Below are positions 32,900 through 59,976 of a DNA stretch of 64,000 bases, piece after piece. Every line of letters starts with the position of its first letter. Position 1 is the first letter of the stretch. The notes beneath the pieces were generated by a model that worked only from the letters and a program-made list of their open reading frames with translations, searched no databases and was not told the DNA's origin. The DNA comes from Methylotenera sp. (GTDB taxonomy: Bacteria > Pseudomonadota > Gammaproteobacteria > Burkholderiales > Methylophilaceae). Where the stretch lies: the NCBI GenBank assembly GCA_030655015.1, contig JAURWJ010000101.1, forward strand, positions 1 through 64,000, in the 5' to 3' direction. The translations under genes were made by a program, and so were the position numbers.

Positions 32900-32929
32900 G
32901 TTTACAGCCTTATGTTTATATTTTTAAGT

Positions 32930-33042
32930 TTTATCGACATATTCTTAGTGTATGTCGATGCTGTCGACACGTCAATCTTTCATGTCGACGATTTTTTGTT
33001 TTATCGACACATGTAGAAGGTGTGTCGATTGTGTCGACATAG
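32930..33042. promoter_or_regulatory. Cluster of TGTCGA(T/C) inverted repeats between fic and higBA
   Basis: Two similar blocks: ttatcgacatattcttagtgtatgtcgatgctgtcgaca and ttatcgacacatgtagaaggtgtgtcgattgtgtcgaca. Confidence 0.8.
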
Positions 33043-33885: not shown

Positions 33886-34067
33886 AAGTGTTTAAAAAGC
33901 ACTTACGATTTCATAATAAAAATAGGATGACTCAAATTGACTAAGTGCAGAATAGAAGATTGCTCCCTTAATATCTTTGCAAATTATACCGAGTGCGTGC
34001 TTCATTGCGAAAAGCATGATTATCATGGAATTATTTTTATAAGCATAAGCATAAGCTGCAAATGAAA

Positions 34068-34118
34068 ACGCCCCAATCTCTCGAAAGGGGCGTCTTTATT
34101 GGTGGGAAAGAGTCAACC
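34068..34118. repeat. Terminator plus degenerate tRNA-Met 3'-end remnant (candidate left att of island A)
   Basis: acgccccaatctctcgaaaggggcgtctttattggtgggaaagag parallels acgcggcactctctggaatgccgcgtctttattggtggtgaaagag at 62880-62923. Confidence 0.6.
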
Positions 34119-36332: not shown

Positions 36333-39300
36333 CTAAATTTTAATAGCGTTATATTCGACTTCAGATATCGCAAAGTCTGGATCGATGGTTTTAATATCGA
36401 TGTAGGAAAGTTTAAATAATCGAAATATGAACCCATCAAGGATGGTTTCGTCAACGGAGGTACTCTGACCAAGGTTTAATTTTTCAATTATTTTTTCTGT
36501 AAGATTACTTATGAACAAACCTTGTTGAGAGTTAATTTTTGGAAGAGGTAATTTTTTTGCGTTCTCAATTAATATTTTTTGAAAAGTATTTTTCTCTGGA
36601 TCAGTAAACTTGTATTTGTGATAAAAGTTTATTAATTTAGAGTTTATTAAACCGCATAGTAACTTGACACTTAATTCAGAGTTTTCTTTCTCAACAATAG
36701 CAAATCCAATTTGTGTATGAAATAACTTTTGATCACAATAGCCAGCATGTATTCCAGTTGAGTTACTAGAAACTATTTGCCTCACAATAACTCTTGGCCT
36801 TGTGAAAAAGTATTTTTTTCTCGGGGCACCTAGCCAATCACCATATTTTAGATATTCGCTAACTTGACCGTGAACGACATATCTTGAAATACTTTGACCA
36901 GAAATTAAAGGAACCCAAGTTTCATCGATAGGGAAGTCCGAATGAAATTCCTTGTTTTTGATTAGCGACTCGGAATGGCCTCTGTACTTATCATAAGGCG
37001 TAATGCCCAAAGAGAAATCGAATTTGTCAGAGAAACACTTTTCCATTGATTGGTCAATTTTCTCCAAAAGTTGCTGACCAATATCATTGCAAAATATGTT
37101 AAATCTGAATTGAGAGTCCAGTTTCCAATTTTTTAGAGAGATATCTTGAAACTCTATGTTTTCGAAATCAATTTTTGAATCATTTTTATAATATGCCACT
37201 AAAGCATTTTTATCATTTTTGTCTTTGATTGCTTCAAATATTATGGTTTCAACAATTGCATTTTCGAAAATATCGTCTGGAAGTTTGATAATTTTATGTA
37301 CATGATCAACAACAAGTTCCCTTACTTTTTGGTAAGAGCTGTTCATTAATAACGAGTTGGGAACGATAAAACTTATTACTCCATTTGGTTTAAGCAGCTT
37401 CCAGGATTGCTCAATGAATATTGCATATAGATTAATTCTATTAACAGCAGTATTAAATTTAGATGTTAATGTTTTAACAAAGTTAGGCTCTAAGTTCTTA
37501 ATGTCAACATAAGGTGGATTAGCAATAATGATGTCAAAGCCATTCCTGCCCGCAACATCATTATTCATAATCTCTGCAAAATTTAACTGCCAATCAAAAA
37601 ACTCTAAGGTTTTATCTTGCTTAGATTTGAGTAGCTGAAGATTGCTAATTTGTTGCTTCCAACCCTCAGTTTGTAAGTACCGCTCAGTTTGCGCGGAGAT
37701 TGCTTTGCTATTCCCTGCAGGTTTTGTAACTACACCTTTACTTTGAATCATCAAACTTAATTGCTCATTCAGCAAATCAATTTTTAAATCACGGATTTTT
37801 GTTGCATGATCTTTTTTTCTTGTACTTGGATCAAAAAATTCTTTTTGTAGTTGAGTTAATTGATTCAAGATGATTTGAATACTTTTGGTTTCTTGTTCAC
37901 CAAAAATATCAAAAGTTGTATTTTTCTTAACGCTCCAGTCAATTTCAATGACATCATCGCCAAGTTTACTAATGAGGCTATTGCCCACCACAATTTTATA
38001 ATCTAAATTAGGTAAAGGTTGTGGCTCTGGCTCATCCACCACTAAGCTTAGCCAGAAGCGCAAGCGTGCGATATCAACTGCGCCGCGTTCAATATCTACG
38101 CCATATATACTGTTTTGGATAATATTGAGTTTTACTTTTGCGGGCTCAAAGCTTGTTAAGTCACCATGCGTAAATGTGTGTATGGTTTGTTTGGCGGTAA
38201 AAATCTCTAGCAATAATCCCATGGGGAAAGCGCCTGAGCCAATCGCTGGGTCGCAAATTTTTACTTTATCTAAAGCCTCATTAAACTCAGCAGCATGTTC
38301 AATCACAGCTTGTTTATCTTCATCACTTAGTTGTTTTTTAAGTAGTTTTTCAATCAAACTACGGTTAATTACTTTGCTGTTTTCTTGTCCAGGTTGTGCA
38401 ACCTCTAATACACCTTGCCCAGTGCGGCCTTCATTGACGGATAGAAAGTTTGCCTGTTGAGCGTTATCAAAGCTGATAAAAGTATCTTGTTGCACCTGAT
38501 AATTTTTGCCTTCAAACCAAGTGGTGAGGTATTCAATCAGGCTTTCTTGGCACATGTAGTGCACAATTTCTTTAGGCGTGTAGAAAGCACCTTTATCTTT
38601 GTTATCTTCTAGCAAGTTTTCAAATATATGCCCCAGCATTTCTGGGTCAACCGCTACGGTGTGGTCATTAGGGTCATCTTCATAAATGGTGAAGTTGTAT
38701 TGATCAAAAAAAGCAAAAAGGTCTTTAAATAATTCAGCCTCAAATATTAGGCCACGTTGACTCGGGTTATCTTCTTCAAACAAGCCGCCATTTAGGTAGG
38801 GAACGCGTGTTTTCTCGCCAGGGATGATTTCTGCTAAGTCATCTGGCCGTGGTTGGTTGAGTGTTTCAAAAAATAACTTACTTAAATACTCACTATAAAA
38901 AATACTTGGGTTGCGGCAATTAGCCAGTAAGCGGCTTATAAAGTCTGGTTTTCCGTTACCCCATTTGTCGTGAAGCGGAACGCCTAGCCAGCCCTTTTTT
39001 TGAATAAAGTATAAGAAAACAATGCGGCCAAGCAGCTTTTTACAAAAGTCACGTACATCTTTTTCATTATTATTGAAAATAGTAGTGAGTTGCGTGTTGG
39101 GCGCATGCTTAACAACTTCTTCCCATTTGCCTGCAATTTTTTCTAGGCGCTTGCCAGTTAAAAATTGTACAAAATCTTGGTAGTGATCTTTGTAAGTGTC
39201 AAAAAACTCCTTAGACATTTTTTCAACAGAGAAGGCTTCTTTAATGTCATCAAGCGTGGCATTGCTTGCCTTATCTTGCAGCTTGCTAAACTGGATTGCG

Positions 39301-39773
39301 GCTGTACGGCAAGATTCATTTTCACCAAGCACATAGGTGTAGCGTTTAGGTTCTGTTTTATTGTCTACATATTCGCCAGCCTCATTAAAGGTTTTGAGTT
39401 CTGACACATAGCTAAAACGCCAGCTTTTGTCTTGTGGGTGGTGGTAAACAATAAATGCTGCGTCTTGTTGTTTCCAGTGCGGTTTTAACAGGTTACGCAA
39501 GCCTACACGGTTGCGCTCTAATACAACATTGTCTGCCAGTGTTACTTCATATACCGCAATGTTTCTGCTGATACCATTTTCGATAATATTGATGCTACCA
39601 ATATGAAGTGCTTGGTTTGCTACAGTCGCGTTAATGCCTAGTAATTGCGTTGGATTGCTAAAAAAGTTGCTGCTAGTAAACAGCTCACTTAAAAAAGTTT
39701 TCCAGCGTGTACTGTTGTATTCAGCTTTTAATATGTGCTGTATTGCTGAGATTTTTTCTTCTTGAGTTGCCAT
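36333..39773 (-). CDS. Eco57I-like N6-adenine DNA methyltransferase/restriction-modification protein
   Basis: Motif I CDPAIGSGAFPMGLLLEIF; motif IV IIANPPYVDIK; long specificity-like C-terminus. Confidence 0.85.
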   Translation of the reverse strand: MATQEEKISAIQHILKAEYNSTRWKTFLSELFTSSNFFSNPTQLLGINATVANQALHIGSINIIENGISRNIAVYEVTLADNVVLERNRVGLRNLLKPHWKQQDAAFIVYHHPQDKSWRFSYVSELKTFNEAGEYVDNKTEPKRYTYVLGENESCRTAAIQFSKLQDKASNATLDDIKEAFSVEKMSKEFFDTYKDHYQDFVQFLTGKRLEKIAGKWEEVVKHAPNTQLTTIFNNNEKDVRDFCKKLLGRIVFLYFIQKKGWLGVPLHDKWGNGKPDFISRLLANCRNPSIFYSEYLSKLFFETLNQPRPDDLAEIIPGEKTRVPYLNGGLFEEDNPSQRGLIFEAELFKDLFAFFDQYNFTIYEDDPNDHTVAVDPEMLGHIFENLLEDNKDKGAFYTPKEIVHYMCQESLIEYLTTWFEGKNYQVQQDTFISFDNAQQANFLSVNEGRTGQGVLEVAQPGQENSKVINRSLIEKLLKKQLSDEDKQAVIEHAAEFNEALDKVKICDPAIGSGAFPMGLLLEIFTAKQTIHTFTHGDLTSFEPAKVKLNIIQNSIYGVDIERGAVDIARLRFWLSLVVDEPEPQPLPNLDYKIVVGNSLISKLGDDVIEIDWSVKKNTTFDIFGEQETKSIQIILNQLTQLQKEFFDPSTRKKDHATKIRDLKIDLLNEQLSLMIQSKGVVTKPAGNSKAISAQTERYLQTEGWKQQISNLQLLKSKQDKTLEFFDWQLNFAEIMNNDVAGRNGFDIIIANPPYVDIKNLEPNFVKTLTSKFNTAVNRINLYAIFIEQSWKLLKPNGVISFIVPNSLLMNSSYQKVRELVVDHVHKIIKLPDDIFENAIVETIIFEAIKDKNDKNALVAYYKNDSKIDFENIEFQDISLKNWKLDSQFRFNIFCNDIGQQLLEKIDQSMEKCFSDKFDFSLGITPYDKYRGHSESLIKNKEFHSDFPIDETWVPLISGQSISRYVVHGQVSEYLKYGDWLGAPRKKYFFTRPRVIVRQIVSSNSTGIHAGYCDQKLFHTQIGFAIVEKENSELSVKLLCGLINSKLINFYHKYKFTDPEKNTFQKILIENAKKLPLPKINSQQGLFISNLTEKIIEKLNLGQSTSVDETILDGFIFRLFKLSYIDIKTIDPDFAISEVEYNAIKI

Positions 39774-39788
39774 ATTTATTTGCTTAAT

Positions 39789-42700
39789 TTACTTAAATGA
39801 TTCTGAAAGTATAAGTTGTGGTTTGGCAAATTTTGCAGCAACATCTTTGCTTACCTCATCATCTTTAACGTTGTATTCTGCTGCAATTAAATCAACTTGT
39901 TGTAGTAGTTGTGGTGGATTCATTGTGCCTTTTTTAGCCGCTTTTAATACTTTATCAACCTTGTCTGGCAGCTTGGTATAACGACCAATTTCAATTAAGG
40001 CGACTAGCTTTTTAATATGATCTTGCTGCTTAGGTGTTGCAATTGGCAGTTTTGCTAAATCTGCTAAAAACTTTTTCACGCGCATTGCCTTTACGCCAAG
40101 TGCTGTTGGCTCATCACGTTCTATAGCGTAGTCTTGCTCCACCTGCTCAAAATGGTTTAATGCTTGTTGCACGTGATCATGGTGCTGTTCAATCAATGCG
40201 GCTGGCTTTTCTGCTTGATCTGCTTTAAATAACTTAAATGCCTCAAGCGGTGTAATTTCTGTTGGTTTAGATTCTTCTATCCAGTAAAACTCTAGCTTGT
40301 GAGAGGTCTTTAAAAATGCAGCTGTACCATTAGCAACTTCTGGTCGTCCACTATCTTTTGCTACGCGGCCAGTGCGGCTTTTCATCGGTAGTTTTCTGAT
40401 TTTTTCAAACCAAGCGCGGTTTTCCTTTTTGAATTGGCGTAATTCGTGCAAGTATTTTAAGCGCTCATCTTCAGCCTCTTTGTATTCTCCACTGAATAAT
40501 TTGCTTTCATCCATAATTTCATCGGTAGAGAAAATTTGGTTATCTTCACCAAAGGTTGCATGGAAAGCCTGAATTTTCATGAAGGCAGTTTGCGTGAGCT
40601 TGATTTGCTCGTTACCCTGGGCTGAAGGATAAAACACGTAGTTGTATATTTGCGTGGCTGAAGTACCAATACGATTGACCCGCCCAATTCGTTGCATTAG
40701 TTTGGTTGAGTTCCAAGGCGTGTCGTAATGGATAACCACATTGGCACGGTGTAGGTTTACACCCTCTGCCAGCACTTCTGTGGTGATAATAATGTTGTAG
40801 TCGTTTTTTTGTTCTTTGCCTTTTTGTCTATCAATCTCTAATGGGTAGTTTGCATCAAAGTTTTCGACAATCGTATCGTATTTTTCGCGGCGGTTTTCAC
40901 TGCTGATTATCAGTACGTCTTCTCTGCCAGCATCTATTAATGCTTTGCTTAAGTAACTCACTGTGTCTTTAGACTCTGAAAAAATAACTAACTTACCGTT
41001 AAGGTTGGTTTTAGGGTTTAGGAACTCGCTACTTAACTTGTGCAAAAACTCTTTTAGTTTAGGATCATCTTTAACAGCATCCCAGGCTTCAACAAGTTCA
41101 TCTAACAATACGGCATCGTGCTGCAATTGATCTAAAAATTCTGGTGCAAAGTTGTCAGCTTTGAACTGTTGGTTTTTAGGTAGATCAGCACTAATCCTTT
41201 CAATTTCTGCAGCGATTTCCTCGTCGGTAAGCCCTTTATCCATCAACTTATTGATATCGAGGTCTGGCGCGATAAAAATCTGGTCTTTAGCAAACATATC
41301 TATCATGCGAGCGTTTGCTTTTTGGAAGGTTTTTAATGAAGATTTGAACGCATAAAAGCTGCTCTCAATACGCTTAACGAGCTGTGTTTTAATAATAAAT
41401 GCGAGAGATTTAGAAATGCGCTCCGCATTTTCGTAGTTTTCTTGAAATTCAGGCTTTAAACTGGCTACAGCCTGGTAACGTGCGTAAGTTAACTTTGATG
41501 GATCTGTTAGATAATCTACAGTTTTAAGGAATAAGGCGGATAAAACAGTATCCATAAAGTATTCCACTTTTTTAGGTGGGTTCACTTTGGGAAATGTAAT
41601 TCCTTGTTCTTCTAAGTCTTGTTTGTAAGCGGGGATGCTCTCTAAGTCGGTGCGTGAGCGTCTAATCGTAATTGGCTGAATAATATTCTTGCGAATATCA
41701 GCGTATATGTCTCTGAGCTTTTCAACATCTAATGCATCTTCTCTTTTTAACTCTTTGTAGTTTGAGATGTGTCTATTAAAAAATGCGGTTAAGTTAGCTA
41801 CTGGTAGCGTTGATTGCCTTGGCTCTTGGAATAAGGTTACTTGATGCAATATATCGTCTGGGCGATTGTTGAGCGGTGTAGCTGAGACTAGAATAACTTT
41901 CTTCTTATCAACAGATTTTTCACCAGAAATCGTGCCTTTGTTGGTGCGTGGTGCTTTGCAAATCTTTTGTAATTGATCGAAAGCGCCCGAAGTGTGGTTT
42001 CTAAACTTGTGTGCCTCATCCACAATTATTAAATCGTAGTCTTCCTTTAACCAATAATCTTGGTGACCATCTAGAATTTTTTGCAGACTGCCATTGCTAA
42101 TGAATTTTACATATCGGTCTAGCTTGAATTCTCTAAATGTATTTTTCCAGTTTTTTTCTACTGCTGGAGGGTAAACAACTAAAATTTTAGTGTAGTCGCG
42201 GCCATTTTTCATAATGAATTTTTTCGCGACAAGCGTAGCAATAATCGTTTTACCAAGACCGACAACATCAGCTAGTATGAAGCCGTTATGCTCAAGCAAC
42301 ATGTTGAAGCCTTCATTTACAGCATCAATTTGGTAGCTTAGCTTTTTAAATTGGTCAGGTAAGTCTCCCAGTGCGTCTGGATCGTAATCAATATTTTTAT
42401 CAAAGTATTCTGTTAGTACCTTAACGTAAAGCTCAAATGGCGTTACTGTGTCGTTAAGGTGAGTTTGTTTTTTAATGTCCTGGACATCAACTGGTAGCAA
42501 TGGAATTGATTCAGCCCAAAGCTTTTCAAACTCATCGGTTGCGAATTTTACGTCTTGATAGTCATTAAGCTGGACGTTAAATTCATAGTTATGCAATACC
42601 CCAGAACCAAGACCAGCGTCTGTAAAGTTTGATGAGCCTGTAATTACCGTTGCCTGGGTGTGCTCGTTAAATGGGTCAGGCCTGAATATGTAAATCTTTG

Positions 42701-43109
42701 CGTGAATTTTCTTGTCAGGATGGGCGCGAACTTCAATTTTCTTTGTGATTAGATCGTCAATAAATTGCAGTATGCCATCTTCTGTTTCTTTGTCGTACTT
42801 GGCTTCTGAGATGTCTTTTTTAATGTCTTCAATAAACTCATCTTTGGTTTTTTCACTGTTTTTGAAAAAATCCAGGCCTTTATCATTTGCTTGCGCAAGC
42901 AGCTTATCAACATTGATGCCAACTAAAATTCTGATTTGCGGTACGTGGAGTAAAAAAGGGCGTACCTTGAAGTAACCTGAAGAGCGAAAATACCCTACGA
43001 GACTATCAAAAAACTTAATGTTTGGATTGTATTTCAATACCCCTTCAAACTTACTAATTAGGGTATTTTCATTTTCGTTAGTAAAGAATTTAGTAGTCAT
43101 CAGTAGCAT
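39789..43109 (-). CDS. SNF2-type helicase with N-terminal phospholipase-D-like nuclease domain
   Basis: KKIHAKIYIFRPDP...ITGSSNFTDAG (HKD-type); GFILADVVGLGKTIIA; LIIVDEAHKF; LMQRIGRVNRIG. Confidence 0.88.
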   Translation of the reverse strand: MLLMTTKFFTNENENTLISKFEGVLKYNPNIKFFDSLVGYFRSSGYFKVRPFLLHVPQIRILVGINVDKLLAQANDKGLDFFKNSEKTKDEFIEDIKKDISEAKYDKETEDGILQFIDDLITKKIEVRAHPDKKIHAKIYIFRPDPFNEHTQATVITGSSNFTDAGLGSGVLHNYEFNVQLNDYQDVKFATDEFEKLWAESIPLLPVDVQDIKKQTHLNDTVTPFELYVKVLTEYFDKNIDYDPDALGDLPDQFKKLSYQIDAVNEGFNMLLEHNGFILADVVGLGKTIIATLVAKKFIMKNGRDYTKILVVYPPAVEKNWKNTFREFKLDRYVKFISNGSLQKILDGHQDYWLKEDYDLIIVDEAHKFRNHTSGAFDQLQKICKAPRTNKGTISGEKSVDKKKVILVSATPLNNRPDDILHQVTLFQEPRQSTLPVANLTAFFNRHISNYKELKREDALDVEKLRDIYADIRKNIIQPITIRRSRTDLESIPAYKQDLEEQGITFPKVNPPKKVEYFMDTVLSALFLKTVDYLTDPSKLTYARYQAVASLKPEFQENYENAERISKSLAFIIKTQLVKRIESSFYAFKSSLKTFQKANARMIDMFAKDQIFIAPDLDINKLMDKGLTDEEIAAEIERISADLPKNQQFKADNFAPEFLDQLQHDAVLLDELVEAWDAVKDDPKLKEFLHKLSSEFLNPKTNLNGKLVIFSESKDTVSYLSKALIDAGREDVLIISSENRREKYDTIVENFDANYPLEIDRQKGKEQKNDYNIIITTEVLAEGVNLHRANVVIHYDTPWNSTKLMQRIGRVNRIGTSATQIYNYVFYPSAQGNEQIKLTQTAFMKIQAFHATFGEDNQIFSTDEIMDESKLFSGEYKEAEDERLKYLHELRQFKKENRAWFEKIRKLPMKSRTGRVAKDSGRPEVANGTAAFLKTSHKLEFYWIEESKPTEITPLEAFKLFKADQAEKPAALIEQHHDHVQQALNHFEQVEQDYAIERDEPTALGVKAMRVKKFLADLAKLPIATPKQQDHIKKLVALIEIGRYTKLPDKVDKVLKAAKKGTMNPPQLLQQVDLIAAEYNVKDDEVSKDVAAKFAKPQLILSESFK

Positions 43110-43172
43110 TGTTTTTATAGGTATTTAAACAACATTCTATTCGATTTTTCATTTTTGTTCATGATTATCCAC

Positions 43173-43231
43173 ATGTCGATAAAGTTGAATTTTATCGACA
43201 TGTTTTTTTAATGCGTCGATGTAATCGACAT
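43173..43231. promoter_or_regulatory. TGTCGAT/ATCGACA inverted repeats upstream of PLD-helicase
   Basis: atgtcgataaagttgaattttatcgacat...gcgtcgatgtaatcgacat. Confidence 0.75.
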
Positions 43232-43263
43232 AATTAGTTAATGGTTTGTCTCGGAAAATAATA

Positions 43264-43300
43264 TGACGTGATAAGAAAATGGCATTTTCTTATCACGTCA
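43264..43300. repeat. Perfect 17-bp inverted repeat with 3-nt loop between ardA and the helicase gene
   Basis: tgacgtgataagaaaat ggc attttcttatcacgtca. Confidence 0.92.
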
Positions 43301-43366
43301 CGTTAAACATGTATAAAAAATACTATTTTCTTTACATATAAAAACAGGGGCGTATGCCCCGTATTT

Positions 43367-43873
43367 TTATACTCCTGCCACGTTGGTGCAAGTGTAGGTT
43401 TGGTTGTTGTATTCAAATTCCACCAAGTCGCCGCCCATTTCACAATCTCGTGCAAACTTGTCATAATCAATATAATAACGGATGCTCTCAGGCACGCTAT
43501 GCAGCCAGCATTCATCAAACAACTCTTCGGCTGCCTCACGTAAGCTTGATACCGTAATGCTTGGTTCATCCACCTTGTCTAAAGCCTGGCTTAATTTGTA
43601 ACCAGCAACATTGAGTAAGTAATACAGGTTTATTTTTTCATGGTCGTCTAAGGTTTCAATGTCATCAAACCATGTGCTTAAATTGGCTTGGTTAATGCCA
43701 CATGTAATAAATAGCGCCGCGTCATCACCATCAATAAAATCAATCTCAAACTCTTCAACTTGGTTGCCGTATCGGTCGGTTAATTTGGTCGATTTTTCAG
43801 TAAACTCATTGGCGTCATTAAAGTAAAAGCCTGCTGCATCGATGTTGTATGGATTGGCATATAGTGTAGTCAT
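43367..43873 (-). CDS. ardA: ArdA-family antirestriction protein
   Basis: MTTLYANPYNIDAAGFYFNDANEFTEKSTKLTDRYGNQVEEFEIDFIDGDDAALF...YYIDYDKFARD. Confidence 0.92.
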   Translation of the reverse strand: MTTLYANPYNIDAAGFYFNDANEFTEKSTKLTDRYGNQVEEFEIDFIDGDDAALFITCGINQANLSTWFDDIETLDDHEKINLYYLLNVAGYKLSQALDKVDEPSITVSSLREAAEELFDECWLHSVPESIRYYIDYDKFARDCEMGGDLVEFEYNNQTYTCTNVAGV

Positions 43874-43994
43874 GGTTGAATCTCCTAAAAGAAAAGCGGT
43901 TGCAATTAAAAATCTGCTCTTTGCTCGTCTTCCCCATGGGGAACGGAAAGGGGGATTGGTTTTTGTGTGCAATGATTTAGAGCAGGCTGATTTG

Positions 43995-44073
43995 CCTACT
44001 CCTGATTGATATTTCGTTTACTGCTCCCCGCTCACTACGACTGGCGGGGCTGAAAACGAAAATCAGGGGTAGG
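43995..44073. promoter_or_regulatory. Large multi-segment hairpin upstream of ardA
   Basis: cctactcctgat...ttcgttt-type segments...ccccgc [12-nt loop] gcgggg...aaacgaa...atcaggggtagg: stems of 12, 8 and 6 bp. Confidence 0.7.
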
Positions 44074-44280
44074 GTTGCCTGCGAATTGCTTGGGCTTGGC
44101 TTTTAGTGCTGACGAAATTTGCAGCAGGAATGACAACGGGGTTTGGTTGGCGTGATGGTGCTAGGCAGCGCTCAAGAAAGAAAACTTAATTCAAAAACAA
44201 ATAACTATATTGACCATGTCTCATCGGGCAATATTCAAATATTACGAACAATGCCCTTATTTCTAGTTCAAGTAATTATA

Positions 44281-46710
44281 TTATGAGCGAGCTCTAACTG
44301 TTAATGCTGTTTGTATGTCTGAAATTGTTGCACCACTAGACTGAAGCGCTCTTCTAAGTTCATTAAATACTGGTGCTGTTTTTTCAACGTCTTCTATTGT
44401 TAGAATTACCGAAAATGGAATACCATCCTCTGGAATGACTTCGCCAGCTCGCGTGATTGCATCAACGACAAGTCTCCATTGTGAAGAGTCTCCAACACCA
44501 CTTTTAGTTATGCGCTGCCTTTTTTTTATCGGCCACCATTTTTGGCCATGCTCAATTCTCTCTTTTTCAAGCGTGCTATCTGAATCACTTTGAAAAAATC
44601 CACGATATGAAACTTCTCCTGTGTTCGTGTTAATTTTTTCCTGACGTAGGTAGGCGTCCATATTAACTCGAACATATTCAGCATCATAACTTTGTACGGT
44701 AAACGGTTTATAAACCAGCGTCATTGTTACCTTACCTCTACATTTGCCGCCTTCACTAACGAGGCTTGCTGGCCATGAGAATGGAAATACCAATTCATGC
44801 CTACCAATCATTGTTCCATTAAAAACAAGTGTAATTGCATATTCGTCTGTAATTAGCGAGTTCAATGCATTACGTGGCACTCCATGACCTACAAAATCTT
44901 TTGCTATATGACTAAGCGATTTGTTATTTAATGCCTTGAGTGGCTCAGCATTATGTACAAGTATTCCAATTAAAGTTTCTCTAGGAATGTCGCCTTCTAT
45001 AATATGGTTTAGGTTAGCTAATGTTTTAGCTACTAACGGGGCTGCATAACTTGTTCCGCATCCTTGAACAATATCCCCACCTAATCCTATCGAAAACAAA
45101 CCACTATTTTCTTCAAATCTGCCTCCAATGTGAGCCAGGTCTGGCTTAGCACCTAGAGCTGTTCCTGGGCCTCTTCTGGTGTATTCAGCGGGTATTAAAT
45201 CCATGTCTTCTGATGGTGGGTTTAGCGCACCTACAACTACGGAGCGAATACTATCGGCAGGCTGAAAAATTCTGTCTTGTCCTAAGTATCTATATTCAGC
45301 AAGCATTCTTAATACATGATCAGCATCTGAAGGCCACGGATTTCTTTTAAGCTTTTCATCAAGATTTCCCGCGGGTAAGAGAAAAATTACATCGTGTTTA
45401 TCAGAAATTTCATCAATCATTGCAGCAAATACGCTGTATGAATCATCTTCTACTCGCCTTAAAACCGAAAGTGACATGTTGAAAATTCGAGCTCCACTTG
45501 TTTTTGCATCAACAAGCTCAACATCTAGCTGCTCAAGAAAATCAATAAACCCATTCGGATAATAATCCTGATATTTAGCAGGATCGGTAGCATGTAACCC
45601 TAAATCATAAATTTTACATGGAGACTCTTGAAGGTATTCAGAGGGATTTAATGTGCCACCCAAAGCGGTTAGCCCGCCGATAAATGTTCCGTGCGATACA
45701 TCTTGTGCTTCAGCATCTAAAAAATCAGTAGATCCTTCCAACCATGGATTTAGTATACCTTTGCTGTTTACTCCAGTATCAATTATGCCAAGAATAGGGT
45801 ATTTTGCACCTGCATCAGGGGCTGATATGTCTACCATTACCCCTGTAGGATGTTGCATAGATTGGGTTTGGTTGATTACTGGGGGTAACATTATCTTTCT
45901 AACTAATGGTTCCGCTTCTAGAAATGTTAACAATTGTTGATGTATTGCCATATCAACTCTTCTTGATGCATTGGTATATTCAGAGGCCACTTTTATAACC
46001 AATAGTGGCGCTGAGCTCCACTTTTCCTCTAGCTCTTCAACAATGACAGGTAAGTTAAGTGCTTTAATACCTTTAACTAGCCTTTCAATCTCTGCTAAAA
46101 GCCGATTTTCATATAACCCATGTTGACGTTTTGCAATTGATTTTTTAGTGACAAACATCTGTACCAAATACATTCCGCCAGTGCGAGGATTGGACAGCCA
46201 ATCCACTGCCTGCTCAATAGAGAAGTTTCTTCTGTCTTCAGGCCGGTGCAGCCTTATTTCAGACACTCCACCTACTTCACTTCGCTCTCTAGATGGTTTA
46301 GCTTGACGATTACCTTTATGGTCAAGTTCCCAATTTGTATTTTCTTCAGCTTTGTTTATTGAGGCTTCTACGTCCGTAATGTTTTCAGGTGTAAGCTCTA
46401 CAAACATTTCACCTATGGCACCACCACCAACTTCTTGTACTTTGTTTTCTGGGAATAGTTTTTTAATTGGTCTGTGTGATTTTGCCCATGCTTCGCTACT
46501 TAGAACTACGTGTGCATAGTTTACGGATCTACCTTCAAGATTAAACTTGTCTCGTATACTGCTAATGTCACCTAGTAGTTTTTGTTTGTGCTTAATGAAC
46601 CCTTCATCAAATCCAGCGTAAAAATCTTTAGATGCACCAAAACCACCAGGCGTGGCAAGTTGGATATAGTTTTGAGTATTTAATACGATTTGAACTGGAT
46701 TGTTAGCCAT
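44281..46710 (-). CDS. S8 (subtilisin-like) serine protease
   Basis: Triad motifs: ILGIIDTGVNS (D), DVSHGTFIGG (H), GCGTSYAAPLVA (S). Confidence 0.9.
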   Translation of the reverse strand: MANNPVQIVLNTQNYIQLATPGGFGASKDFYAGFDEGFIKHKQKLLGDISSIRDKFNLEGRSVNYAHVVLSSEAWAKSHRPIKKLFPENKVQEVGGGAIGEMFVELTPENITDVEASINKAEENTNWELDHKGNRQAKPSRERSEVGGVSEIRLHRPEDRRNFSIEQAVDWLSNPRTGGMYLVQMFVTKKSIAKRQHGLYENRLLAEIERLVKGIKALNLPVIVEELEEKWSSAPLLVIKVASEYTNASRRVDMAIHQQLLTFLEAEPLVRKIMLPPVINQTQSMQHPTGVMVDISAPDAGAKYPILGIIDTGVNSKGILNPWLEGSTDFLDAEAQDVSHGTFIGGLTALGGTLNPSEYLQESPCKIYDLGLHATDPAKYQDYYPNGFIDFLEQLDVELVDAKTSGARIFNMSLSVLRRVEDDSYSVFAAMIDEISDKHDVIFLLPAGNLDEKLKRNPWPSDADHVLRMLAEYRYLGQDRIFQPADSIRSVVVGALNPPSEDMDLIPAEYTRRGPGTALGAKPDLAHIGGRFEENSGLFSIGLGGDIVQGCGTSYAAPLVAKTLANLNHIIEGDIPRETLIGILVHNAEPLKALNNKSLSHIAKDFVGHGVPRNALNSLITDEYAITLVFNGTMIGRHELVFPFSWPASLVSEGGKCRGKVTMTLVYKPFTVQSYDAEYVRVNMDAYLRQEKINTNTGEVSYRGFFQSDSDSTLEKERIEHGQKWWPIKKRQRITKSGVGDSSQWRLVVDAITRAGEVIPEDGIPFSVILTIEDVEKTAPVFNELRRALQSSGATISDIQTALTVRARS

Positions 46711-46721
46711 TATTTTTCCCC

Positions 46722-47906
46722 TTAGGCAGCTTTACCGCGTTTTAGCCATCTACTAATTGTTGATTGATCTTTATGGAAAAGCTGTGCAAGCTCATCTTGT
46801 CTAAAGTTAAAATCAATGTCATCTGCCAATACTCTTGCCAAGTCCTCATGATCGGAAAGGAAAAGCTTACGTCTTGGTGAATTTACATGGTCGGCACTAA
46901 GGTGAACATTAAGTCTTAATGCATCCATTACGCTAAAATCTGATTGTTCTCGCATAACTTGATACCTTTTTAATGCGTTGCATAGTGCCTCAATTTCAGC
47001 GCCACTATACCCATCGGTTATCCATGCAAGAAAATCACGTTCAACGTTTGTTGCTTCTATGCCCTCTAAGTATTTATGAACAATACTATTCCTTGAAACT
47101 ACATCAGGTTTTGGTACGAAAATTCTAGCGTCAAATCTTCTCCAAATAGCAGAGTCGAGCAACTGCTCATGATTTGTTATAGCTATTGTGAATCCAGTTG
47201 ATGAGCGCTCATCTAGACATTGAAGTAATGTATTTACTACACGTTTGATTTCACCAACTTCGTGTGGATCGTCTCTAATCTTGGCTACTGCATCAAACTC
47301 ATCTAATAGAAGAATGCATTTATAACGATTAGCAAATTCAAATAAAGTCGCTATGTTCCTTGCGGTCGTTCCCAAAAATGAAGAGATTAGTCCATCCAAC
47401 CTAGCGGTGACTAATGGTAAAGACAATCTTGACGCTACAACATGAGCTAACTTTGTTTTACCTGTTCCAGGTGCTCCAAATATTAGACAGTTCAAAGGTG
47501 GCCTTATACCAGCTAATTTAAGCTTATCTAAATGAGCCCATTCATCTGCTAATGAGTCAATTGCAGCCTGAAGTGACTCGTTGAGGATTGGTGGTTCAAC
47601 ATCAGATAGCTTCGAAGGCAATAGAACTGTTGCAAGCGATGCGCCAGTTTCTCTGTCTACTGGAGGGATAATGCTTAACGGCATCGTCTCTCCGTTTAGA
47701 GCCTGACGAGATAAAATTACCCGACTAGGCTCAATCTTGCCACTTTGTTCGATTCCAGTTAAAAGTTTTGCCAATGAAACGGCTTGATCTTCATCGCCCT
47801 GTTTCTCTAACGCCTTTACCAGTCTATCAACATGGCGCTTCAACGCATCAGTTGGGTTTTGCATAGCAGTTCGGCAAACAGCAAGAACTATTGAAAAGTT
47901 TTCCAT
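46722..47906 (-). CDS. AAA+ ATPase with C-terminal HTH
   Basis: IFGAPGTGKTKLAHVVA Walker A; CILLLDEFDAV Walker B; C-terminal FRQDELAQLFHKDQSTISRWLKRG. Confidence 0.9.
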   Translation of the reverse strand: MENFSIVLAVCRTAMQNPTDALKRHVDRLVKALEKQGDEDQAVSLAKLLTGIEQSGKIEPSRVILSRQALNGETMPLSIIPPVDRETGASLATVLLPSKLSDVEPPILNESLQAAIDSLADEWAHLDKLKLAGIRPPLNCLIFGAPGTGKTKLAHVVASRLSLPLVTARLDGLISSFLGTTARNIATLFEFANRYKCILLLDEFDAVAKIRDDPHEVGEIKRVVNTLLQCLDERSSTGFTIAITNHEQLLDSAIWRRFDARIFVPKPDVVSRNSIVHKYLEGIEATNVERDFLAWITDGYSGAEIEALCNALKRYQVMREQSDFSVMDALRLNVHLSADHVNSPRRKLFLSDHEDLARVLADDIDFNFRQDELAQLFHKDQSTISRWLKRGKAA

Positions 47907-48016: not shown

Positions 48017-48339
48017 TTTAACAATAGGATGCGGCTTTTGTATTTTTAAATGTCCAACTTTTTGAATTGCTTCAATTACTTCTGTATAAAGTTATTTTTT
48101 AAAGGCGCTTTTATAGCAGGCCACTCACCCCAAGGTGAGTGAAGCTATTTTTCTGCCCAAGCATAAAAATGGCTGTGCCTGTTTTAACTGCCGACAGGTG
48201 GTTAAAATTGCCCCTCGTTCAGAGTGGCAACACAAGCTGCGATAGTCGCACCCTAGTGCGGATAAGACCTTGTTAGCGAAGCGTTCGCCCCAGCGAAACA
48301 AGGGCGTGCGTAGCTGCCGTCGTCGGTGACAGCTCAAGC

Positions 48340-48474
48340 TGGCGCTCGACCAAAGAAGATAATATGTAGCGTCCAGCGAAACCCAGAACATTGTGGCGGG
48401 CAACTTTTAGTAAGCGTGTCTGCGTCAGCAGATTCGTGTCTAAATGTTGTGTTTTCTTCTTTGGTCGAGCGCCA
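48340..48474. repeat. 20-bp perfect inverted repeat (tggcgctcgaccaaagaaga / tcttctttggtcgagcgcca), candidate oriT region
   Basis: Arms 48340-48359 and 48455-48474 in a large non-coding gap next to relaxase genes. Confidence 0.75.
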
Positions 48475-48787
48475 GCGACGGCGACGGCAGGTGAATTTGA
48501 TGGGTGGCAAGCGTACAGCGCAGATGCATATCAAAGAGGCTGAAAGCCTACCAAGTGAAGCAGGCGTCCAGACTGGTAACGTGAGGTGAATGCTGATGCT
48601 GCTTGGCGTCCAGCCATGTCAGATTAGCAGAGGATGGCTTCCTAAAAACTTATGCAGACCAACTGCATAAGCTTTCGATTTTAAATATTAGGCGGTTAAG
48701 ATGGTGAGCATAGTTGGATAAGTTACAAGGGAAAGTCGTTTATTCTATGGTGCTTATCCAACTATGTTGTCCATCAGCCCAGATAAG

Positions 48788-49501
48788 TTATTGGCTTGGC
48801 GGCCAGTTATCAAGTGCATACACGGGAAATCTGGCACGATGCCTTTCGGTAATGGGTACGCGTTCGCCTACAACTGGTACTGCTTTAATCAATTCAAACA
48901 TACGAATTAGCCTAGGTGCAAAGCTTGGATCTGGGCACACGTAATGCACTTTGGCATACGCATCGCGCTTCATCATTTGTAGGTAAATTGCAAAGATGGC
49001 TTCATAGCGTTTTAATGTTTTGATGCTACGTTCTAATTCGATAGCCACGATTTGACCTTCAGTATTTGTGGCAATAGCATCAGGCCGCTTTTTAATATCT
49101 TTGGGTAAACGATTGCCAGGTATCCAGTTCGTCCAACCTGCACGTTCTGCTATCAGCCTAGCACGCTGAATATCTAAGTAATGCGCTATTGTCATGATGG
49201 ATAGTTTGCTTGGTTCAAAGTATGGCCTGATTTGCATAGTTTCGTTTTCAGTCCAAGCAAAGGCTAAACCTTGTGGTGTAATACCCCAAAGACTTAGCCT
49301 TAAAGTGCTAACTTTGAATCTCAGTAAAAACCCGTCACGCTCCATTTGGCAAATAGTCTTGAATGCTGCTGGCTCTGACAAACCTAGCACACCTGCCAGG
49401 TTTGTCAGATTGCTCCAAGTTTCATCACGTAAAAAGCGTAATACGACCTCACGTTTGGATTGCGCTCGTGCACAGCGTTGTTGATATGAGTTAATCAACA
49501 T
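48788..49501 (-). CDS. MobC-like (CloDF13/MOBC type) relaxase or Replic_Relax-family mobilization protein
   Basis: N-terminal wHTH; KRPDAIATNTEGQIVAIELERSIKTLKRYEAI fits PD-(D/E)xK-type relaxase; adjacent to coupling protein. Confidence 0.65.
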   Translation of the reverse strand: MLINSYQQRCARAQSKREVVLRFLRDETWSNLTNLAGVLGLSEPAAFKTICQMERDGFLLRFKVSTLRLSLWGITPQGLAFAWTENETMQIRPYFEPSKLSIMTIAHYLDIQRARLIAERAGWTNWIPGNRLPKDIKKRPDAIATNTEGQIVAIELERSIKTLKRYEAIFAIYLQMMKRDAYAKVHYVCPDPSFAPRLIRMFELIKAVPVVGERVPITERHRARFPVYALDNWPPSQ

Positions 49502-51233
49502 CGAGCATACTCTGCGCAGTGGTTAGTGACGCATTATTCATTTTACGTCCAACATCAGTTGGCTGTGATGATTGCTTAATTGCAATAGGTGTTGTTGCCT
49601 TAGTGCTTTTATTGACCAAAATAGGTGATGTAAAAAAGAACTTGGCTAGACCAGCGCCAAACAAGACAGCGCAACGTTCTGGCAAGGCTTGTAGCATGTT
49701 GGTGTCAATCAGGTTGCGTTCAGCTTGTCGTAGTGTGCGCTCGCTATTTCTGGTTTCTGTCAGTCCTGCATTGGTCTTTACTTGGCGTATTTCATCATCC
49801 ACCAAAATTAAACCACTCATGCGTGCTAGCCAGTCTGCCGTGTCAGGGTCTTGAACCATATAGGCCAGTTTGATAGCACAGTTCTCATTTACCGATGCTA
49901 CAACTGAGTCCGCATCCAAGTCTGCTGGGCAGTCACGCAAATCGCCTAATGATTGATGTGCAATAATGACGTGAGCACGTTTGTCACGAATAGCCCCCAA
50001 AGCTTCTAATGATGGACGCGAAATCAGAAATTTGAACTCATCCATAAATAGGCATACATGACGTGCAGATTCACGATCACGAGACTCTATAAACTGAATC
50101 ATAGATAACACAAATATGCGTTGTAGTTTAAGAATGCGCGGATTTCGCATTGAGCCACGCACATATATTACTGCGCCTTGTTGCATTAGTTTTGCTAAAT
50201 CCACACCATGTGTAATATTCACCGCAGCGACTAAACCAATTTCCTCCAAGTCCGATACGAATTTCTTGCCTGCCTCAGCAATGTCTGGTTGTTGTTCAAT
50301 GAGTAATTGCAATGAATTAATTAGCGTTGTTTGGTTGCTATAGGCTAAGTTGGCAAATATGCGTGCTGCGCGCCTATCATCTAAGCGGTAAAAGTCTGCA
50401 TCCGTGCCTTTTTCCCCAAGTGAAAAGCCCGCGGATAATAACTCTTCAATCTCGGTCGCATTTTTTTCCTGTAATGGATTCCATTGCGCGGCTTCAGCTA
50501 GCAAGTCGATATAAACATAAGGTACACCAGCCTCTTGCGCGGCTTTATGCATCACATGTGGTAAAAATTCATCATTTTTAGGATCTACTACAATGACACA
50601 TTCACCTGATGACAAAGCCTGTGTCAACAAGACGCCTGCCGCAACACCTTTGCCTGAGCCTGTGGTGCCAATGATGTCAAGGTGTGTTTTGCACCATTTA
50701 TCTAAAGGAATATAAACAGGCTGCTTTTGTTCATTTAAGCCAAAGAATATGCCACGTTTCAAGTTAAAATATTTCTCAGGGGCATAAGACTTCAGCGCAT
50801 TTGGTAAATGCACACCAATTTGACGAATATCAGTCTTGCGGTTACGCTCAACACGGCTGGTTTTAGTGAGGCGGTGTTTAATCACTTCAATAACACTTGA
50901 GCCATATCGTATTGTGTACCACACAAAGATGGTGCTCAATATAGCCTCTAGAATAAATCCCCACAAATAATATGGTGCTAAATAAAACTCCTTGCCTGCA
51001 ACATACTGAGAGATGTAAGGGATTGCAAAATAAAATCCGATTTGGAAGATTAAAGGCAACATCGCTAGGCGTATAAAATATCCACTGGCTTTATTGCTAC
51101 GATTTACCCATGCCAATGAAACACAAAAGCCAAACAGCAATCCAGTGGCTGGCCATAGCAGGTCTAAGTAATGAATCCATTGATTTAAAAAATCAATAAT
51201 GAGTGCGTTAAGTTTATTCAAAATATCTTGCAT
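49491..51233 (-). CDS. Type IV coupling protein (TraD/VirD4/MobB-like)
   Basis: TM region; IGTTGSGKGVAAGVLL Walker A; VCLFMDEFKFL; VIIAHQSLGDL. Confidence 0.9.
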   Translation of the reverse strand: MQDILNKLNALIIDFLNQWIHYLDLLWPATGLLFGFCVSLAWVNRSNKASGYFIRLAMLPLIFQIGFYFAIPYISQYVAGKEFYLAPYYLWGFILEAILSTIFVWYTIRYGSSVIEVIKHRLTKTSRVERNRKTDIRQIGVHLPNALKSYAPEKYFNLKRGIFFGLNEQKQPVYIPLDKWCKTHLDIIGTTGSGKGVAAGVLLTQALSSGECVIVVDPKNDEFLPHVMHKAAQEAGVPYVYIDLLAEAAQWNPLQEKNATEIEELLSAGFSLGEKGTDADFYRLDDRRAARIFANLAYSNQTTLINSLQLLIEQQPDIAEAGKKFVSDLEEIGLVAAVNITHGVDLAKLMQQGAVIYVRGSMRNPRILKLQRIFVLSMIQFIESRDRESARHVCLFMDEFKFLISRPSLEALGAIRDKRAHVIIAHQSLGDLRDCPADLDADSVVASVNENCAIKLAYMVQDPDTADWLARMSGLILVDDEIRQVKTNAGLTETRNSERTLRQAERNLIDTNMLQALPERCAVLFGAGLAKFFFTSPILVNKSTKATTPIAIKQSSQPTDVGRKMNNASLTTAQSMLDVD

Positions 51234-51237
51234 AGCA

Positions 51238-52170
51238 TTAGTCCTTTTGATTTAAGTTTTGTGTTGATTTGCGACCAAGTACTTGGTGCATGGCCGCGAG
51301 GTGTTTTGGAATTTCGCTTGGATTGCTGGGCTTTATCACTTGAGAAGTTTTTTGAGCTTCAGTTAGTAATGCTCGCTCGCGAGCTGATGCAATACGGACG
51401 CCTGCTTCTGGTGTAAATAGCCCTGTTTTAGCACGAGTGATAAGTGAACGCAGGTAGCTTAGTGGCGCACCTGTGACTTTGTTTGCATTTAGGCGAGCGG
51501 CTAATTCGTCCAACACAGCCTGGGCTAATGCTGAATCAATGACATCTAATTGGGATTTGGCAATCTCGCGCTCTTGTGAAGTTAATTGCTTTGGAAAAAT
51601 ATAATCAGCACAACCACTAGCAACTTTTGCCGCATCGTTATCCTGTGGTAGTGGGCTTATATTTGCAGAACCTTTTAATTGCAAACCCTTAGTGGCCGAT
51701 TCACCGACTGACGGCTTTGCCAATAGATGGTTTTCCCGTAAGTCAGAAAACCTATCTTTTGGTGAAAGTGGCTGTTCATTAGACTTCTGATTTGATAGTG
51801 GAAAATCAATTGCCCATAAATCTGGGTGATTTAATATCCATTGTCTACCAACAATCTGCCCCGCCTTATAGACTTTAGTGCCAAGCTTAGTCATTTCTAA
51901 AGCCTCTTCGGCACTTAAGCGTTTGAGTACAATAGAAATTGCACCAAAATACTTTAGCTCCTTAAGATAGGTTTTAAGTTGGGTAATGCCACCAGGTGAC
52001 ATACCAACAATAAATGACAAGTAAAATATCCAGCCGTCAGGAAAGTCCCAAAGCGTCGCGAAAACACCTTTTGCACCAAATGTTATACGTCTATCTCGGA
52101 ATAATGCGCGTTTAAATGGCCTAGAAAAAGCCGTTTCAGCGCCATTGCGAACAATGTGAATTTGACTCAT
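51238..52170 (-). CDS. HTH-domain island protein (replication-initiator-like)
   Basis: KRALFRDRRITFGAKGVFATLWDFPDGW...MSPGGITQLKTYLKELKYFGAI winged-helix-like. Confidence 0.55.
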   Translation of the reverse strand: MSQIHIVRNGAETAFSRPFKRALFRDRRITFGAKGVFATLWDFPDGWIFYLSFIVGMSPGGITQLKTYLKELKYFGAISIVLKRLSAEEALEMTKLGTKVYKAGQIVGRQWILNHPDLWAIDFPLSNQKSNEQPLSPKDRFSDLRENHLLAKPSVGESATKGLQLKGSANISPLPQDNDAAKVASGCADYIFPKQLTSQEREIAKSQLDVIDSALAQAVLDELAARLNANKVTGAPLSYLRSLITRAKTGLFTPEAGVRIASARERALLTEAQKTSQVIKPSNPSEIPKHLAAMHQVLGRKSTQNLNQKD

Positions 52171-53445: not shown

Positions 53446-54639
53446 TTATTTTTTCTTGTTTTTGATGCTATCAAGATAGTCAGCCCACTGTTGCATCATA
53501 GCTTTGCGCTGCTCTATAAATCTAGTGCGATTATAAGCGCTGCCAAGGTTATCAGGCACAGTATGCGCAAGTTGGTGTTCGATAATATGTGGATCTACAT
53601 TGAGGCGTTCATGTAATATTGTTCTAGCCATCGCTCTAAAGCCATGCCCTGTTATTTGTGTTTGAGTGTCATATCCCATGCGTTTGAGTGCTGCATTTAC
53701 TGCGGCTTCACTCATTGGTCTTAAGGGTGAGTGTCCTCCTGGAAACACATACTCTCTATGACCAGACAAAGGTTGCATTACCTTTAAAATTTCAACAGCT
53801 TGTCTGGATAACGGAACTAAATGGTCGGTTTTTGTTTTGCTTACTACATAGCGCCATTCACCAGCATCTAAATCAATATCACTCCACTTTGCTTGTCTCA
53901 GCTCACTTGGTCTGGCGAAAACTAAGGGTGAAAGCTTAAGCGCACATTGAACGGTTACAGTGCCGTTAAACCCGTCAATTGCGCGTAGTAGCTCTGCTAT
54001 ATCTTTTGGGTCGGTAAAGGCAGCCATGTGTTTTGTTGTGGTTGCAGGTAAAGCGCCCTTAAGGTCATAAGTGATGTCGCGGATGGCTCTACCTGTTTGT
54101 ACTGCATAGCGAAATACTTGGCCAGCAGTTTGCAACGCTCGGTGAGCTGTTTCTAGCTTATTGAGGTTTTCTATACGTTTAACTACTTGAAGAAGTTGAG
54201 GGGCGGTTATATCGGCAATTGGTACGTTGCCAATCCAAGGAAATAAGTAGAGCTCGAAGCGTCTGATCACTTTGTCTTTGTGGGTCTCCGCTTTATTTTT
54301 CATGTGAGTGCTCCACCATTCACGCGCAACTAACTCAAAGCTATTTGTAGAGCTGAGAATTTTCTCTGCTTTAATTTGTTGCCGCTTTTCACTAGGATCA
54401 ACTTGATCATTGGCTAAGAGCTTTCTTGCGTCATCACGCTTATCTCTGGCTTGCTTCAGCGATACATCAGGATATGTTCCAAGTGAGAGTAGCTTTTCTT
54501 TTCCCTCAAAACGATACTTAAATCGCCACCATTTACCCCCAGCAGGGGTAACTTGCATGAATAAACCGTCTGTATCATAGATTTTATAAGGCTTTTCAGC
54601 GGGTTTTGCATTCTGTATTGCGGTGTTTGTAAGTGCCAT
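53446..54639 (-). CDS. Tyrosine integrase (DUF4102/P4-type)
   Basis: MALTNTAIQNAKPAEKPYKIYDTDGLFMQVTPAGGKWWRFKYRF; RPSELRQAKWSDIDLD; GHGFRAMARTILHE; HQLAH. Confidence 0.95.
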   Translation of the reverse strand: MALTNTAIQNAKPAEKPYKIYDTDGLFMQVTPAGGKWWRFKYRFEGKEKLLSLGTYPDVSLKQARDKRDDARKLLANDQVDPSEKRQQIKAEKILSSTNSFELVAREWWSTHMKNKAETHKDKVIRRFELYLFPWIGNVPIADITAPQLLQVVKRIENLNKLETAHRALQTAGQVFRYAVQTGRAIRDITYDLKGALPATTTKHMAAFTDPKDIAELLRAIDGFNGTVTVQCALKLSPLVFARPSELRQAKWSDIDLDAGEWRYVVSKTKTDHLVPLSRQAVEILKVMQPLSGHREYVFPGGHSPLRPMSEAAVNAALKRMGYDTQTQITGHGFRAMARTILHERLNVDPHIIEHQLAHTVPDNLGSAYNRTRFIEQRKAMMQQWADYLDSIKNKKK

Positions 54640-54747
54640 TTTGGGGTAACTTTCCGAGTAAAAATCTCTATAATAAGAGTTACCCCACAAAGTTACCCCA
54701 GTTAGTTGGGGTATGTCAAGGAATGCTGTGCGACGGGTTGAGGCAAT

Positions 54748-54815: not shown

Positions 54816-54861
54816 TGGTGGTGAAAGAGGGACTTGAACCCTCGACCCCAGGATTATGAAT
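54816..54861. repeat. att direct repeat (46 bp) identical to tRNA-Met 3' half
   Basis: tggtggtgaaagagggacttgaaccctcgaccccaggattatgaat also at 62912-62957. Confidence 0.95.
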
Positions 54862-54981
54862 AAGTTATGAACAAGCTTTATTTGGTTTTAATTTACTTGT
54901 AATTCCTTTATAAAACATCAATATATCAATAACTTACGAACATCCCCAGTTTTATTTTCCTTGCTTTAGATTTTAATAAAT

Positions 54982-55012
54982 GCTATAAATTTGCTATAAA
55001 TACGCTATAAAT
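54982..55012. repeat. GCTATAAAT x3 at 11-bp spacing (candidate integrase arm sites, left)
   Basis: gctataaat at 54982, 54993, 55004. Confidence 0.85.
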
Positions 55013-55031
55013 TTTTAGTGAGGAAATTCAC

Positions 55032-56372: not shown

Positions 56373-56508
56373 CCCGATTTTTATTATCATAATATTTTGT
56401 TTTATATCGGCGTTTTTATGTTGTATTTCAATTTTTAATTTGCTAATATTTACTCACCTTACGCCATCGGGCAATTCAAAAAGCCCGTTGTAATAACATC
56501 CAAAATGG

Positions 56509-56548
56509 GTGTCGGCGGAAACATTTTTGTTAATGTTTACCGCGACAC
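56509..56548. other. Imperfect hairpin upstream of alpA-like gene
   Basis: gtgtcggcggaaacat tttttgtta-type loop atgtttaccgcgacac. Confidence 0.6.
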
Positions 56549-56594
56549 TTATCACAATCAGTCTGCGGTGAACCTATGCACTGGAGACTGAAAT

Positions 56595-56816
56595 ATGACC
56601 ACTTCGACACTTACCCCGCTTCTCAGCACTAAAGACCTTGCAAGCCTTTTAGGTTTAAAAACCAACACCGTTGAACGCCTTCGCTGCCAAGGTCATGACT
56701 TGCCGCGTCATGTGAAACTACCCAGCGGTGCGATTCGCTATGACCCCAAAGACGTTCAAGATTGGCTAGATAAAAATAAGCATCAAACTGCGGCTTCTCA
56801 GCTAGCGGCTGCTTGA
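56595..56816 (+). CDS. AlpA/HTH_17-type regulator
   Basis: LLSTKDLASLLGLKTNTVERLRCQGHDLPRHVKLPSGAIRYDPKDVQDWL. Confidence 0.85.
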   Translation: MTTSTLTPLLSTKDLASLLGLKTNTVERLRCQGHDLPRHVKLPSGAIRYDPKDVQDWLDKNKHQTAASQLAAA

Positions 56817-56926
56817 CCAACTTACGTCCAAGACTACAAAACTAGCATCTAACGAATTGAAATAATTATGAAGAATAGCGCGTCACGCAGACATACAAGC
56901 CTATTGTCAGCCGCATAAAGAAAAAC

Positions 56927-56948
56927 CCCAGTTTGGGCGAACTGGGGC
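56927..56948. other. Hairpin just upstream of primase-helicase start
   Basis: ccccagtt tgggcg aactgggg, 12 bp before ATG 56961. Confidence 0.75.
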
Positions 56949-56960
56949 AGGAGTAAAGCA

Positions 56961-58907: not shown

Positions 58908-58913
58908 ATATGT

Positions 58914-59109
58914 TGCAACTGACTGCAACTTTAACCACAAAAAGTTGCAACAGTTGCAGCACAACATTTTTGTGCAACTAAATTCCAAAAACTGGCAGCT
59001 AACCTGCATAGTTGCTGTAGTTGCGCTGCAACTGATATGTACAACTTTTTGTTGCGAGTTGCATAGTTGCGCTAATTAGCCCCCTTTAGGGGGCATTAGC
59101 ACTGCAACT
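58914..59109. repeat. Dense TGCAACT/AGTTGCA repeat cluster (candidate replication origin iterons)
   Basis: At least 8 exact copies, e.g. 58914, 58924, 58943(rc), 58952(rc), 58973, 59027, 59057(rc), 59103. Confidence 0.8.
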
Positions 59110-59961: not shown

Positions 59962-59976
59962 AGCATTGATAAATAC

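Follow-up and report, generated by a model that had tools for sequence, protein, structure and literature searches.

Structured modules ahead of establishment genes are described from several conjugative plasmids. The Frpo/ssi modules, known from the F and ColIb-P9 plasmids, serve here as the reference for gene set, spacing, size, copies and orientation (PMC11541004, PMC9849209, PMC7736820). The upstream modules of ColIb-P9 (L119) are located at 1109-1462, 2924-3252, 8745-9098, 9960-10285 and 12851-13179 and form two sequence families, one ahead of ardA and another antirestriction gene and the other ahead of ssb and two other genes; F has modules of both types. EGeRS1 of pLS20 is rich in inverted repeats and directly precedes the ribosome binding site (RBS) in ardC and further establishment genes; it has no promoter, blocks upstream transcription in its native orientation only, and is on an element in which the transferred strand is the non-template strand (PMC8708921). 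For RP4, a study of zygotic induction reported that the induced genes had no single-strand promoters found for them (PMC7314908). How anti-restriction and SSB genes are expressed on plasmid entry outside the enterobacteria is the question addressed by the module described below, a previously unnamed, folded control unit of about 300 nt that precedes establishment genes of betaproteobacterial plasmids and islands. A literature search found no paper describing this module, which is not proof that none exists.

The ardA leader of a Methylotenera island

The window is the 64,000-nt stretch of Methylotenera sp. DNA that was analysed. Its ardA gene (43367-43873, minus strand) has an ATG at 43873 and the RBS AGGAGA, and encodes a true ArdA (PF07275, 40.7 bits against a cut-off of 27, E 4.7e-10), in agreement with the initial annotation. 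The 79-nt stem-loop that this annotation placed about 120 bp upstream of ardA is also borne out: hairpin A occupies 43995-44073 of the minus strand, exactly 79 nt, and ends 122 bp from the ATG. The 203-nt interval that includes it (43873-44075) folds far better than shuffled sequence, whichever strand is taken (z = -4.1 on the plus strand and -3.8 on the minus strand; 0 of 200 dinucleotide shuffles as good). Of the stems first reported as 12, 8 and 6 bp, broken by a bulge and an internal loop, the 6-bp (CCCCGC/GCGGGG) and 8-bp (TTTCGTTT/AAACGAAA) helices stand as described, while the longest pairs at 12 of 13 positions with one C.A (CCTACCCCTGATT/AATCAGGAGTAGG) and the interruptions are asymmetric internal loops.

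Hairpin A is one part of a larger module at 43907-44172 (minus strand). An outward extension is possible through the outer helix P1, in which GCAGGC (44077-44082) pairs with GCCTGC (43982-43987). A short alternative hairpin, A2 (GAGTAGGC/GCCTGCTC, 43980-44001), competes with the outer part of hairpin A. Between hairpin A and ardA lie a second conserved hairpin, B (CGTTCCCCATGGGGAAGACG, 43926-43945; CG-TTCCCC-AT-GGGGAA-GA-CG, with the stem YCCCCC/GGGGGR in other members), and a 17-nt conserved core (CGAGCAAAGAGCAGATT, 43911-43927) with zero to one base differences in members ahead of ardA, ardC and one uncharacterised gene. The 5' edge of the module is at about 44172, where homology to a sister island of Methylotenera (L068) stops and the neighbouring cargo differs, and the 3' edge is just ahead of the gene-specific RBS. 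The element in the window has one copy. Past ardA, a 23-nt inverted repeat at 43259-43305 (TAATATGACGTGATAAGAAAATG), conserved in the sister island, is perhaps a terminator or operator, and repeats of the form TTTTATCGACAT...TCGAT...TCGACA occur at 43183-43230 as well as at the left flank (32922-33039).

The element that carries the module has a MOBC-type relaxase gene, mobC (48788-49501, minus strand; NF041423, 264.8 bits, cut-off 200), and a gene for a mobB/traD-like type IV coupling protein (49491-51233, minus strand; PF02534, PF10412), which together make it a MOBC mobilisable island. Two islands (34065-54861 and 54862-62957) are arranged in tandem at a tRNA-Met gene (62912-62988), with integrases at 53446-54690 and 55032-56372; the end of the tRNA gene is duplicated exactly over 46 bp at 54816-54861, and a related end repeat occurs at 34065-34105 and 62877-62917. 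The sister island shares the leader-ardA block (43003-44172, 91.7% identical) and the mob block (48112-51764, 84.6%), with the cargo between them replaced. An IetS/IetA anti-phage pair is found in this interval of the window (44281-47906; PADLOC E 2e-290 and 4e-160), with the ardA leader on one side and the candidate oriT on the other; since the sister island has different genes there, the interval looks like a cargo slot. On the other side of ardA, a Type IIG-like methylase/nuclease (PADLOC REase_MTase_IIG) is beside a PLD-SNF2 helicase related to DISARM DrmD and HKD+Snf2 proteins (36333-43109), a possible defence pair. Elsewhere in the window, an int-alpA RNA (RF02996, 52.6 bits, 20662-20728) is adjacent to an integrase gene (20736-21977) and a tRNA-Leu gene.

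A module family of betaproteobacterial elements

Members of the family were reached by several routes. Across 299 genomes of the order, blastn with the window leader recovers two loci of a single genome (G057), in which a leader of 70% identity precedes ardC, not ardA. A scan for the 17-nt core, with matches checked by gene context, adds the Methylotenera sister island and a Sulfurisoma element adjoining trbL (L054), both with ardA. Exact matches to the core in the whole collections number about 61, close to the number expected by chance, and true members are separable by context only; L006, L011-L018 and most of L020-L079 are such chance matches. A covariance model seeded with five leaders adds an ardC leader beside trb genes (L105) and a radC leader beside virB2/3 (L106). 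In the window, a covariance-model match covers 43907-44064 (168.8 bits), and a weak one in G285 (L107) was left out of the member count. The plasmid members were reached through a search with the ArdC protein, which led to two Nitrosospira plasmids and from these to Eleftheria and Diaphorobacter plasmids and further genomes, where ardC, SSB and ParB-like genes are downstream. By blastn, the leaders of the window and of L007 have no match among plasmids (for the window leader 72,556 plasmids, F and ColIb-P9 included, at E 0.01).

The hairpin is conserved ahead of other ardA genes, namely those of the Methylotenera sister island, the Sulfurisoma element and the locus L132; the ardA leaders with the module include one in genome G054. 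The initial annotation had named absence of the hairpin upstream of orthologous ardA genes as grounds for abandoning its reading, and the reading survives this test since the hairpin is there; two ardA genes of 56-57% identity (G208 and G326) have no recognisable module. Elsewhere the module fronts ardC, ssb, parB-like, N6-methylase, DUF932 and radC genes, with different sequence and the same helices. Copies at L115:46898-47138, L116:46202-46640 and L116:48306-48905 precede small genes without a Pfam match, which are candidates for new establishment or anti-defence genes. As a searchable family, the betaproteobacterial leader marks anti-defence genes by what precedes them, including uncharacterised genes behind copies in the Eleftheria, Diaphorobacter and Nitrosospira plasmids.

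Copies are sharply bounded. The plasmids have two, three, three and two copies each, all co-oriented within a plasmid. The 5' edge is near CTGTCACAGRCCACGCCAGCC and the 3' edge at ...GAGCGAGAGGATC, beyond which the RBS sequence is specific to each gene and unrelated; every intact copy examined ends 15-100 nt before the start codon. The sense-strand order is the 5' part, P1 around hairpin A, A2, a spacer, hairpin B (with a GAGC..GAGCAG-like tail), the RBS and the ATG. A2 uses one strand of P1 and, in the window, overlaps the outer stem of hairpin A.

The helices covary. Among 17 members, P1 has 15 distinct 5' arms that are 94.6% Watson-Crick paired, compared with 37.4% when arms are swapped (0 of 20000 permutations attain the observed figure), while the proximal arm of hairpin A is 97.6% Watson-Crick across the family (again 0 of 20000 arm permutations) and A2 gives a similar result in the arm-permutation test. 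Because arm assignment was manual, the percentages apply to selected helices, most of which a symmetric search close to the anchor positions also recovers. Alternation between P1 and A2 in single sequences is mostly not above shuffles, and the same is true of Frpo/ssi. Overall, there is high confidence that the module is real and conserved.

Strands: folding and transfer

Odd pairs were counted giving G.T and A.C equal weight. Family-wide, A2 read on the sense strand has 13 G.T and no A.C pairs, where composition predicts 30% G.T (p = 1.5e-7), and 7:0 for internal pairs only (p = 1.7e-4); as the members are related, these counts are not fully independent and the p-values are optimistic. P1 has no G.T and 10 A.C pairs, where composition predicts 27% G.T (p = 0.07); composition accounts for the A.C excess, which was dropped as proof of template-strand folding. 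Folding relative to shuffles differs by region. In the 5' part the template strand is favoured (mean z-difference +1.29, sem 0.41, with DNA parameters), whereas A2 (RNA parameters, -1.62, sem 0.26; 16 of 17 members) and the B region (RNA parameters, -0.98, sem 0.30) lean to the sense strand. P1-A alone is strand-neutral, and from B to the 3' end the sense strand is the favoured one for 14 of 16 members. Sliding-window polarity is weaker than regional folding in the module and is weak in the controls too. Since the downstream half (A2 and B) is constrained on the sense strand, it is probably transcribed; the simplest reading is that transcription begins upstream of A2 and that the last ~200 nt form a leader RNA.

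Over its whole length, the module prefers the template strand no more than composition accounts for (mean z-difference -0.23 with RNA and +0.48 with DNA parameters). By contrast, all seven known Frpo/ssi modules of F and ColIb-P9 used as controls lean to the template strand at full length. The comparison of folding on both strands with known Frpo/ssi structures, which the initial annotation had proposed as a check, goes against its reading, with the controls biased and the module centred on zero.

The strand that enters a recipient can be predicted for two Nitrosospira plasmids. In pNRS527-2, an IncP-like nic motif (TATCCTG|CC) with an inverted repeat is located at L112:16507 (plus strand), and in pNRS527-1 a related motif (ACATCTTG|CC) is between traK and traJ at L114:20595 (minus strand). 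In IncP-type transfer, traJ-I enters last (PMC7314908); given this polarity and the orientation of the nic motifs, the predicted transferred strand is the template for both copies of pNRS527-2 and all three copies of pNRS527-1. In pNRS527-2 the ardC copy is on the leading side of nic, about 7.5 kb away. Early entry is not general, because the second copy of this plasmid is beyond the relaxase gene and the copies of pNRS527-1 are tens of kb from oriT.

In the window, the likely oriT is a conserved, highly structured non-coding region adjoining mobC (48112-48788), which may otherwise be a mobilisation RNA. It is ~85% identical to the sister island and has inverted repeats at 48338-48476 and 48700-48775, and folding bears out its structure. 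The region carries repeated GCGTCCAGC and several long inverted repeats. A nic search in two candidate regions of the window found no IncP-type motif, and these regions have only short matches to a MobC plasmid (L111). With oriT at 48.1-48.8 kb and the relaxase gene entering last, it is the minus strand that would be transferred; for ardA this is the non-template strand, and the proposed single-strand promoter could not work on entry. An oriT to the right of the mob operon would give the right orientation for the template model; one MobC plasmid has a single large non-coding region, which lies upstream of its coupling-protein gene. For the window's island, the strand transferred may be the wrong one for a single-strand promoter.

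Readings of the module and comparison with described systems

The slightly favoured reading, held tentatively and at rather less than even probability, is an entry-dependent promoter hairpin joined to a transcribed, structured leader. Hairpin A is the upstream half of a modular leader ahead of establishment genes (anti-restriction, SSB, ParB-like and methylase), with betaproteobacterial conjugative plasmids and mobilisable islands as its carriers. The long P1-A hairpin, formed only in single-stranded DNA, would provide or permit a transcription start on the entering DNA, presumably also in the window's island, and would in this respect resemble Frpo/ssi without sequence kinship. The downstream half (A2 and B) would then be transcribed and fold as RNA, with A2 removing the 3' strand of P1 from pairing between nascent RNA and template, such that the template could refold as the promoter hairpin and the mRNA be released. 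An unlikely extension of this scheme is that the module represents a new, non-homologous class of entry-activated leader that works on two strands, a single-strand hairpin promoter and a competing nascent-RNA hairpin, and fires repeatedly until the second strand is made. Somewhat less probable than the two-part promoter and leader, though a credible possibility, is an EGeRS1-like structured 5' leader RNA that lacks a promoter, blocks upstream read-through by sense-RNA folding and keeps ardA silent except on entry. The sense-strand constraint on A2 and B is consistent with this RNA leader, as are the position of EGeRS1 modules, likewise directly ahead of the RBS in ardC and further establishment genes (PMC8708921), the terminator-like run of T right after A2 in L105 and L106, and a transferred strand of the window's island that may be the non-template, as in pLS20. 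However, the T-run is absent from the window and most members and no terminator was found in the window module; EGeRS1 homology is lacking, the Nitrosospira plasmids have the transferred strand as template, unlike pLS20, and the RNA leader leaves unexplained what starts transcription on entry. The entry-dependent promoter with a transcribed leader and the RNA leader make strand-specific predictions, and the module thus offers a means to discriminate between them.

The stability of the multi-hairpin module and the single orientation of all copies within an element would also suit a single-strand initiation site for second-strand synthesis (of the G4 or primosome type), with the upstream position incidental, and Frpo transcripts are reported to prime lagging-strand synthesis in F as well (PMC7736820); yet the end of copies 15-100 nt before start codons and a 3' half built as sense RNA are not needed for pure priming, and this explanation is improbable. 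Slightly less probable still is an ordinary double-strand sigma-70 promoter with a decorative hairpin. One promoter-like site, TTGCCC-16-TATAGT (44231-44204, minus strand), is on the correct strand and lies upstream of the module, but such sites are no more frequent than in shuffles (0.7 expected), this one is past the 44172 edge where the DNA of the sister island is unrelated, and covarying helices common to ardA, ardC and ssb genes would go unexplained. A scan of the stem for -35/-10 elements finds none that are conserved; applied to ColIb ssi, this linear scan likewise yields nothing beyond shuffles and, having failed on these positive controls, was dropped as evidence.

Among described families, the radC RNA (RF01754) and STAXI (RF01728) of Rfam are similarly structured and near DNA-handling or antirestriction genes of proteobacterial mobile elements. 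The radC consensus of AGCC...GGCU and UUCG-looped hairpins is unlike the module, and searching with RF01754 yields nothing at E<=10 in the genome of the window, nor does a scan of the window leader list it, while the best match of STAXI, a family of tandem pseudoknots, is elsewhere in the genome (E 5.6) with none at the module; neither family matches the window module or its relatives even at lenient thresholds. EGeRS1 (pLS20 and pBS72 of Bacillus), which the module resembles no less than it does Frpo/ssi, is likewise a repeated, structured module directly ahead of the RBS of ardC and other establishment operons, with no sigma-A/70 promoter evident and a sense-strand structure that is likely important. 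It differs in its unrelated sequence, its length of 400-600 bp, its Gram-positive hosts and its transferred strand, which is the non-template in pLS20 and the template in the Nitrosospira plasmids. No Bacillus plasmid is among the matches of any module search.

The initial annotation had called the hairpin a Frpo/ssi-like promoter, and this reading holds in part. The module differs from Frpo/ssi in having no sequence homology and a betaproteobacterial host group, in the absence of a whole-module template-strand folding bias, and in a 3' half constrained as sense RNA; a covariance model (R1) has no match in the ColIb regions searched. Likenesses are the size (about 330-350 nt), the gene repertoire (antirestriction, ssb, parB, methylase and DUF932-type genes), with Frpo/ssi modules of 330-354 bp preceding antirestriction genes, ardA and ssb in F and ColIb-P9, and the same spacing before the RBS. 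Both types of module also occur in two to three co-oriented copies per element and combine a long stem with smaller hairpins, and in the two Nitrosospira plasmids whose nic motif can be recognised, the strand predicted to be transferred serves as the template. Thus, while membership in Frpo/ssi is not supported, a functional analogy between the betaproteobacterial module and Frpo/ssi is plausible.
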